Positions 57,828-59,543 of a stretch of 64,000 bases of DNA are shown here, piece after piece; position 1 is the first letter of the stretch, and the number at the start of each line of letters is the position of its first letter. The DNA is taken from the NCBI GenBank assembly GCA_004376055.2, contig CP049016.1, forward strand, positions 124,001 to 188,000, given 5' to 3'. The notes under the pieces were generated by a model. That model saw only the letters and a program-made list of their open reading frames with translations. It had not been told where the DNA came from and searched no databases. Made by a program: the position numbers and the translations under genes. The DNA is from Nitrospirales bacterium LBB_01. GTDB lineage: Bacteria > Nitrospirota > Thermodesulfovibrionia > Thermodesulfovibrionales > Magnetobacteriaceae.

Positions 57828-58541
57828 TTATGCCAGAACGTCTATTTCAGCAAGCCCTATGTCAATGCCTGCCATGAGGATTATTCTTGCGTCCTCGGTT
57901 TGTCCCTCATCATCAAGTAGTTTTTCGTAAACAATAAACAGATATTCCTGAAGTGTCTCAGTGATTTCTCTGGCATAAATCATCCCAAGGTTTTCCGTTT
58001 TCATACCGGTTAGCCCATAGGAATCGGTTGATATGACGCTTCTGAAAAATATCGGTTTAACGTATCTCTCATCGCCTCCCCATAGCCTGTGATACAACGT
58101 GTCAGTGCTGTCCTCCTCTATTATTCTAAAGTACTTGGAGCCGATACTGCCAGTCCGTTCATTAAGCCAAAAATCCCATTCCCTCTCATCCTGTGGGTAT
58201 ATTTCCTCTATAATTCTAAAAAGTACAATACCCTCAATTTCCTCATTTGACACAGGGATTTGCAACACAGACTGCTCTTTAGTCTCATTTTCCTCAAGAT
58301 AGAAGCGATAAATTTTCATACTTCCAATCATAAACTTCTCGGCTGCTGCCACAGTGTGAATTCCACCGCCGGGGGATTGCGCTTTTAAAACGTCAGAGTT
58401 TATTACAAACTTTGACTCATCAAACCGGACCATACCATTTATTCGTATTCCAAGAGGAAGGTTTGCATCAACACGCTGGGGCTTCTTTCTTAGAAATCCG
58501 GTCGGTTTTTGCTTGCTTTTTTCGTATATATGTTTAAATAT
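57828..58541 (-). CDS. DUF2491-like protein, apparent ATA start
   Basis: The protein from the first ATG (58433) is 201 aa, but the same frame stays open upstream and encodes residues that look native (P-Q-R-V-D-A-N-L-P-L-G-I-R-I-N-G before that Met). There is no ATG, GTG or TTG in frame upstream. GGGAGGG at 58555-58549 lies seven bases before ATA 58541, giving a 237-aa product starting (I/M)FKHIYEKSK. The body (MIGSMKIYRFYLEE, YPQDEREWDFWLNERTGSIGSKYFRI) resembles DUF2491/YjfK proteins. Family assignment is moderate and function unknown. The start is inference from spacing and frame conservation. Confidence 0.65.
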   Translation of the reverse strand: MFKHIYEKSKQKPTGFLRKKPQRVDANLPLGIRINGMVRFDESKFVINSDVLKAQSPGGGIHTVAAAEKFMIGSMKIYRFYLEENETKEQSVLQIPVSNEEIEGIVLFRIIEEIYPQDEREWDFWLNERTGSIGSKYFRIIEEDSTDTLYHRLWGGDERYVKPIFFRSVISTDSYGLTGMKTENLGMIYAREITETLQEYLFIVYEKLLDDEGQTEDARIILMAGIDIGLAEIDVLA

Positions 58542-58548
58542 CGTAGCA

Positions 58549-58555
58549 CCCTCCC
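58549..58555 (-). promoter_or_regulatory. Strong ribosome site before the ATA start
   Basis: GGGAGGG on the minus strand, seven bases upstream of ATA 58541 and just after the OsmC stop. The first in-frame ATG is more than 110 bases further, too far to use this site. Confidence 0.6.
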
Positions 58556-58563
58556 AAAAGAGT

Positions 58564-59040
58564 TTATTCCACGTTATTGATCTGATATTTTATATCCAGT
58601 TTAACGTCTTTTCTAAGGGAATGATATATTCCACAGTACTTGTCAACAGAGAGGTTAATGGCTCGTTGCACTTTCTTCTCAGTTATGTTTTTAGCCGTAA
58701 TGTTTAACATAACGTCAAACCCTGAAAAATACTGTGGAGGTGTTTCAGGCTTAACGCCAGTAATGTCAACCTTAAATGCTACAATTTCAACCTTCATTTT
58801 CTGTAGAAACATCACGCAATCAGTGGCAATACAAGCGCCAAGACTCATCATAAACGGCTCAGAGGGCTGACAGCCCCACTGAACATTAGCATCATACTCT
58901 ATCTCGTAGCCGCGCTGGGTGCGTCCAACAAATATAAACTCTCTTTCCCAGTTAAGCGTGGCCTTAAACACTGTTGAAACCTTAGACTTATACCCCTCGA
59001 CCTCTTTCTCAAGGCCCTGAATTTCCTGTTCCTCAGACAT
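58564..59040 (-). CDS. OsmC-family peroxiredoxin-like protein
   Basis: A 158-aa OsmC/YhfA-type protein. The two reactive cysteines occur in SLGACIATDCVMFLQK and VDKYCGIYHSLRK, and the family beta-strand SGFDVMLNITAKN lies between. OsmC proteins reduce organic hydroperoxides; the YhfA-like group may have other substrates. GGAGG precedes ATG 59040. The DUF2491-like gene follows closely on the same strand. Confidence 0.9.
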   Translation of the reverse strand: MSEEQEIQGLEKEVEGYKSKVSTVFKATLNWEREFIFVGRTQRGYEIEYDANVQWGCQPSEPFMMSLGACIATDCVMFLQKMKVEIVAFKVDITGVKPETPPQYFSGFDVMLNITAKNITEKKVQRAINLSVDKYCGIYHSLRKDVKLDIKYQINNVE

Positions 59041-59057: not shown

Positions 59058-59543
59058 TTACCACTTAATTCCAATACTTTTCAAATAATCCTGAGCAAGT
59101 TTTAATCCCATTTGTGCAGCTTTTATCTGGTCAGCCGTAGCCCTCTCACGATTCCCCATATTGAAGTGGCAATAGCCGCGCACATAGTAAGCATCGGCGT
59201 CATTTGGGTCTATCTCAATGGCCTTTGTAAAATCTGCGGCTGCTCGGAAATAATCTCCCTTTTTACCATACGTAATTCCACGGTTAAAGCAAGCGTCAGC
59301 ATCCTCAGTGTTCATCTCTATGGTTTTATTGAGATACGTCAGTGCCTTATCATAATTTCCCTTTGCAGAGAGTGAAGTTCCGGTGTTGTAATGTGCGTCA
59401 ATGTTTTCAGGGTCTATCTCCAGAGCTTTGGTAAACTCCTTGAGCGCCTTGTCATGTTGGAATCTTCTTGCATAGGCATACCCGCTGTTAACATACATGC
59501 CAGCCTCTTTGAGGTTCAGCTCTCCATCCCTTGCATCAATCAC
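59058..59543 (-). CDS. Small TPR protein
   Basis: A 161-aa cytosolic protein made of about three to four tetratricopeptide repeats (DKALKEFTKALEIDPENIDAHYN is one unit). GTG 59543 follows AGGAGG. TPRs mediate protein contacts; the partner is unknown. It lies divergently from the TPR-SGNH lipoprotein, whose repeats have the same DYTKAIEIDP style, so the two may be related. Confidence 0.87.
   Translation of the reverse strand: MIDARDGELNLKEAGMYVNSGYAYARRFQHDKALKEFTKALEIDPENIDAHYNTGTSLSAKGNYDKALTYLNKTIEMNTEDADACFNRGITYGKKGDYFRAAADFTKAIEIDPNDADAYYVRGYCHFNMGNRERATADQIKAAQMGLKLAQDYLKSIGIKW

Follow-up and report, generated by a model that had tools for sequence, protein, structure and literature searches.

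The pcnB gene of E. coli begins with AUU, and genes that do not serve translation uncommonly have a conserved AUA start. In S. aureus, excerpts of a report describe AUA starts for infC, ccpN and citZ, with expression at approximately 10% of that obtained from AUG in poor medium and, for ccpN, at up to 30% in rich medium (PMC13009471). In Streptomyces, the sigR gene begins with GTC and its repression by IF3 was established by experiment, and infC of E. coli begins with AUU, again according to an excerpted account (PMC5472188). The ATA start predicted here for a gene of the DUF2491 family joins this already known class of AUH-initiated bacterial genes (that is, genes that begin with AUA, AUU or AUC). 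With infC and pcnB of E. coli it would share a start codon that is disfavoured by IF3, as well as low or autoregulated expression, and it differs from them in the codon (AUA rather than AUU) and in the identity of the gene. As in the S. aureus cases described in those excerpts, its AUA follows a strong or extended Shine-Dalgarno (SD) sequence, and infC also begins with AUA in the bacterial order considered here; unlike those cases, which involve other genes and were documented by ribosome profiling or luciferase, its start is predicted from comparison (PMC13009471). Like sigR, as that gene appears in the excerpted account, it presents a non-canonical start outside infC that is conserved within a lineage and overlooked by gene finders; unlike sigR, with its GTC codon and its experimental IF3 repression, the codon is ATA and the role of IF3 is a predicted one (PMC5472188).

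The DNA under study (the window) is a stretch of 64,000 nucleotides from Nitrospirales bacterium LBB_01 (contig CP049016.1, positions 124,001 to 188,000), the genome of which is a single contig of 3,273,455 bases. An earlier note on this DNA had proposed that a DUF2491-like gene appears to start at ATA, and that proposal was supported by the SD sequence, by the lack of an in-frame canonical codon and by the homologues. In the list of features that follows, and throughout, G000 denotes the window's genome, G001 to G003 its congeners, and G005, G011, G013, G015 and G017 the members of a second genus (g3).

57828..58541, minus strand: gene of a DUF2491 (PF10679) protein, 237 codons plus stop when read from ATA, assigned by Pfam and by relatives
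58539..58541, minus strand: putative ATA start codon, common to G000, G002 and G003, and an internal isoleucine codon (codon 6) in the six relatives whose gene begins with ATG or GTG
58549..58555, minus strand: Shine-Dalgarno sequence GGGAGGG, separated from ATA by a 7-nt spacer (58548-58542), identical in G002 and G003 and matched by the anti-SD of the 16S rRNA
58431..58433, minus strand: ATG, the first in-frame canonical codon, 36 codons in, inside the conserved domain and judged not to be the start
58564..59040, minus strand: OsmC-like gene (PF02566), immediate upstream neighbour (22 nt ahead of ATA), also found upstream of DUF2491 in the three congeners
59058..59543, minus strand: TPR protein gene, likely the first gene of a TPR-OsmC-DUF2491 unit

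Read along the minus strand, the start region is CTCTTTT-GGGAGGG-TGCTACG-ATA TTT AAA CAT, in which GGGAGGG can be seen directly at the distance that the earlier note had given, seven bases before the ATA at 58541. The upstream in-frame stop is a TAA (58592-58590), and the 16 open codons between it and ATA are AAT ATC AGA TCA ATA ACG TGG AAT AAA CTC TTT TGG GAG GGT GCT ACG; from that stop down to the ATG at 58433 there is no ATG, GTG or TTG in frame, and the assertion that none precedes ATA thereby holds back to the TAA. GGATCACCTCCTT at the 3′ terminus of the 16S rRNA is complementary to GGGAGGG. The protein matches PF10679 with an E value of 4.6e-26 and a score of 91.7 bits (gathering cut-off 25), and the match, which aligns residues 14-233 with positions 10-209 of the 210 in the profile, begins 23 residues before ATG 58433. 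The conserved-looking segment described ahead of that codon, NLPLGIRINGMVRF, is real. Predicted RNA folding around ATA is unremarkable (z of -0.02 in the window, and of 0.93 and 0.62 in two relatives), and an AlphaFold prediction from a two-sequence alignment, aimed at the question of whether the core of the fold includes residues 1-36, gave a mean pLDDT of 33.6 and was set aside for that reason.

A search of 149 genomes of relatives identified nine (the window's own included) that hold the DUF2491 gene, and all nine starts were compared; a contig scan for DUF2491 returned one match, which is the G003 locus already found and was counted once. A survey of the phylum matched the family in only 6 of 245 genomes (five above the cut-off), so that no further relatives with informative starts were to be had. 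G003 very probably corresponds to a bin that a published list places among magnetotactic Nitrospirae (PMC8353452), and on that basis the genus very probably belongs there too. The sister species G002 and G003 (88% identical) display the same SD and ATA as G000 and have no in-frame canonical codon upstream. The block formed by the SD and spacer, GGGAGGGTGCT, is unchanged in all three genomes together with the ATA; synonymous divergence downstream is approximately 0.63-0.67 between G000 and the sister species, yet this block is constant. The interval between the OsmC stop and ATA has meanwhile expanded (22 nt in G000, 58 nt in G002 and G003). ATA is the putative start in two of the three congeners, and the third, G001 (73% identical), together with the five relatives in the second genus, uses an upstream ATG or GTG. 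In G001 the gene begins ATG AGT GGT GCC GGA ATA, five codons upstream of the ATA, and in the second genus (43-45% identical) an ATG, or a GTG in G017, stands at that same distance, in most cases with an extra ATG two codons before the isoleucine. Because ATG or GTG in six relatives lies exactly five codons upstream, codons 1-36 are ancestral coding sequence, and the putative ATA start of DUF2491, which is known from three species (G002 and G003 being closely related to each other), arose inside the genus.

Residues 37-237 give a dN/dS of 0.09 between G000 and either G002 or G003. For residues 2-36 the ratio is 0.41 or 0.32 against these two species, on about ten changes, and 0.15 against G001, which indicates weaker constraint on the first segment than on the rest (0.32-0.41 versus 0.09), albeit from few changes. 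Over the first 36 codons, 4 of 24 synonymous sites have changed, fewer than the roughly 53 of 125 further downstream (p 0.021 by Fisher's test); lowered synonymous change is often met near translation starts.

These observations argue that the DUF2491 gene is very probably translated from AUA at 58541, positioned by a strong SD helix between GGGAGGG and the 16S 3′ end. That the protein might instead begin at the internal ATG 58433, the open frame ahead of it being an untranslated leftover, is suggested by its being the first canonical start in frame, which gene finders limited to ATG, GTG and TTG would choose. No SD is seen ahead of that codon, however, and the Pfam domain starts 23 residues further upstream; in addition, the upstream ATG or GTG of six relatives places the entire segment within their translated protein, the methionine itself is replaced by isoleucine or valine in the second genus, and both the upstream reading frame and its protein sequence are retained in all nine genomes. 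The comparison of homologue starts for which the earlier note had called found no relative using the internal ATG, and two sister species sharing the SD and ATA; initiation at ATG 58433 is accordingly a very improbable account. A start at the adjacent ACG (58544), which is in frame and lies 4 nt after GGGAGGG, is scarcely credible: this codon reads GCA in both G002 and G003, such that ATA is kept and ACG is not, and the spacer would be short. The homologue starts likewise speak against a sequencing or assembly error that conceals a true ATG at 58541, and this explanation, or that of a decaying pseudogene, carries an almost negligible probability. The assembly is perhaps flawed elsewhere, in that a dnaK copy contains a frame-breaking 55-bp tandem duplication, but ATA and its SD appear in the assemblies of two other species, which makes a base-calling error at 58541 very unlikely, and the dN/dS of the region beyond residue 36 is not that of a decaying gene.

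An out-of-frame mini-ORF of seven codons (58534-58557, minus strand) runs across the SD, with its end 5 nt beyond ATA. It is present in all three genomes that have the ATA start, and its own start (TTG in G000, ATG in G002 and G003) is located directly before GGAGGG; the ATG of G002 and G003 stands at the place of the old start, one base out of frame, and is possibly a relic of it. When one inserted base is allowed, the G002 leader aligns with the ATG leader of G001 such that 0.86% of shuffles score as well, whereas the same alignment of the G000 leader with G001 was no better than shuffles and second-genus leaders aligned with that of G002 no better than 14-49% of shuffles. It is a reasonable but unproven proposal that a one-base insertion turned the old leader into an SD. 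The presence of the mini-ORF in each ATA genome, its end just beyond ATA and the fit of the G002 leader also lend something to a different account, in which translation starts out of frame at the relic and shifts by +1 near ATT-TAG/TAA into the frame of DUF2491, or in which the mini-ORF couples reinitiation at ATA. The relic start is without an SD of its own, though, and is TTG in the window's genome, the leader of which shows no such alignment, and this account is very improbable.

The best reading is that DUF2491 is a genuine gene with AUA initiation, which a strong SD rescues; its translation would be weak and is probably sensitive to IF3. The ancestral protein would have begun with AUG five codons upstream, and one branch of the genus lost that AUG (a loss demonstrated by comparison, for which the exact mutation is a matter of reconstruction). 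The G-rich former leader, or its SD, would then have come to lie 7 nt before codon 6, an AUA, which in turn became the start. Initiator tRNA should place methionine at position 1 in spite of the AUA, and AUA pairs imperfectly with the CAU anticodon. Owing to that imperfect pairing, IF3 should destabilise the initiation complex, and the output of DUF2491 should be low and should increase as the supply of IF3 falls relative to that of 30S subunits, by the same logic that underlies infC autoregulation (and infC itself begins with ATA here). Initiation with fMet at AUA, reduced output and discrimination by IF3 would together follow, and the link that the earlier note had drawn between an ATA start and low or autoregulated expression is plausible.

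The decoding system gives no indication of having changed. The 16S 3′ end contains CCTCC, an ordinary anti-SD, and the anticodon arm of the initiator tRNA is the usual GGGCTCATAACCC (stem GGG/CCC), this tRNA being a single copy in each of the seven genomes searched; an altered initiator tRNA was rejected as a candidate on the basis of that usual arm, found in 7/7. The AUH starts of infC, hflX and thrS further indicate that the machinery of the order accepts such codons. In the window's genome these genes are located as follows.

G000:C1:1193807-1194298 (L011), minus strand: infC, with ATA, not ATT, after an SD
G000:C1:1194316-1196202 (L051:14316-16202), minus strand: thrS, directly upstream of infC, with ATT after an SD
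G000:C1, from 1740753 down (L094:9113-10753), minus strand: hflX, seen in the genome sample

The earlier note's statement that ATA starts are very rare needs to be narrowed for this order of the Nitrospirota, in which ATA, ATT and ATC recur (in infC, hflX and thrS, and probably in a radical-SAM gene and bioA). A search of 28 genomes of the order gave 26 infC loci in 25 of them, and at 24 of these loci ATA follows GGAGG at a normal distance; 18 of the 24 have no in-frame canonical codon either at ATA or ahead of it. The exceptions among the 26 are ATG in G008 and TTG in G022. For thrS, all four members of the genus and G006 have ATT, and G025 has ATA; canonical alternatives exist in several of the 18 genomes. 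For hflX, 34 loci were checked (30 of 60 matches, plus four others), and the aligned start is AUH in 31 of them (ATA in 23, ATC in six and ATT in two), mostly after an SD, the other three having an adjoining ATG; up to position +4, 27 of the 34 lack any in-frame canonical codon, and the ATA of G027 and of G032 comes straight after a stop in the same frame. This order-wide AUH start of hflX is more surprising than the ATA start of DUF2491. A literature search for AUH or other non-canonical starts in Nitrospirota found no paper, and hflX went unmentioned in the 10 papers listed out of 146 matches.

In a comparison of five genomes, a radical-SAM/B12-type gene shows ATA in four and GTG in the fifth, G010. 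Three of four genus members have ATC or ATT at bioA, and G001 has ATG there (the two genes were noted at loci L113 and L125); non-canonical starts on these two genes are less certain, with partial support from relatives. An ORF at L099:17465 (plus strand), which from its sequence we take to be cdaA-like, has no canonical start before a conserved-looking N-terminus and possibly starts at ATA or ATT, with no obvious SD.

The frequency of such starts was estimated from 864 kb of the window's genome (the window and 40 further stretches), using coding-like ORFs of at least 120 codons. In 24 of 468 ORFs the first canonical codon lies at least 22 codons into the frame, and six of these 24 (DUF2491, infC, thrS, hflX, the radical-SAM gene and bioA) are AUH candidates by their homologues; DUF2491 was preset and the infC/thrS stretch picked deliberately, which leaves three candidates in 39 stretches (427 such ORFs) as the unbiased part. 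In a control genome of the same order (G022, 20 stretches), 32 of 274 coding-like ORFs were flagged, many because of masked N, so that this is not a clean rate, and inspection by eye left only hflX with an SD and ATA at a conserved N-terminus. After GGAGG, AUH codons occupy five of 23 SD-preceded positions as against 210 of 2498 eligible ones (p 0.039), and the same test gave p 0.51 for AGGAG and p 0.006 for GAGGT; it is a weak and motif-dependent test that leans towards AUH, and one in which motif hits overlap and include the DUF2491 gene.

Several translation-related genes appear to have ATA-type starts, which hints that their expression is held down by a common brake. Ribosomes are split by HflX, and the 30S subunits set free are bound by IF3, so that non-AUG starts on both would make a feedback loop. 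It is a tentative and on balance doubtful idea that AUA, AUU and AUC single out a few genes (infC, hflX and thrS, joined within this genus by DUF2491 and perhaps by the radical-SAM gene and bioA) the translation of which is jointly tuned by how much IF3 there is for each free 30S subunit, with the starts of hflX and infC forming a loop that balances the subunits and with DUF2491 as a recent addition. The repeated AUH starts, above all that of hflX across the order, make testable the long-standing idea that IF3 discrimination serves as a regulatory channel beyond infC. In practical terms, gene finders restricted to ATG, GTG and TTG will cut 36 residues from the DUF2491 protein, and in many genomes of the order they will likewise put the starts of HflX, ThrRS and IF3 in the wrong place.

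The E. coli protein YjfK is a member of the DUF2491 family. In the excerpted description of PspA/polyamine (envelope-stress) operons, DUF2491 is a predicted enzyme, and the window gene belongs to that same Pfam family; unlike the gene in those operons, it follows TPR and OsmC genes (PMC11237479). Beside it in the window there are no pspA, DUF350, DUF1190, ATP-grasp or polyamine genes, its immediate neighbours being OsmC and TPR, and of the two genes that flank DUF2491 in a genome of the second genus (L006), one is unmatched in Pfam and the other has a single match below the cut-off. A role in envelope or redox stress, as its neighbours might hint, is only a guess. The disrupted dnaK copy noted above (L097:11882-11991) has its duplication near the 5′ end, and reflects either an assembly error or a genuinely disrupted copy.
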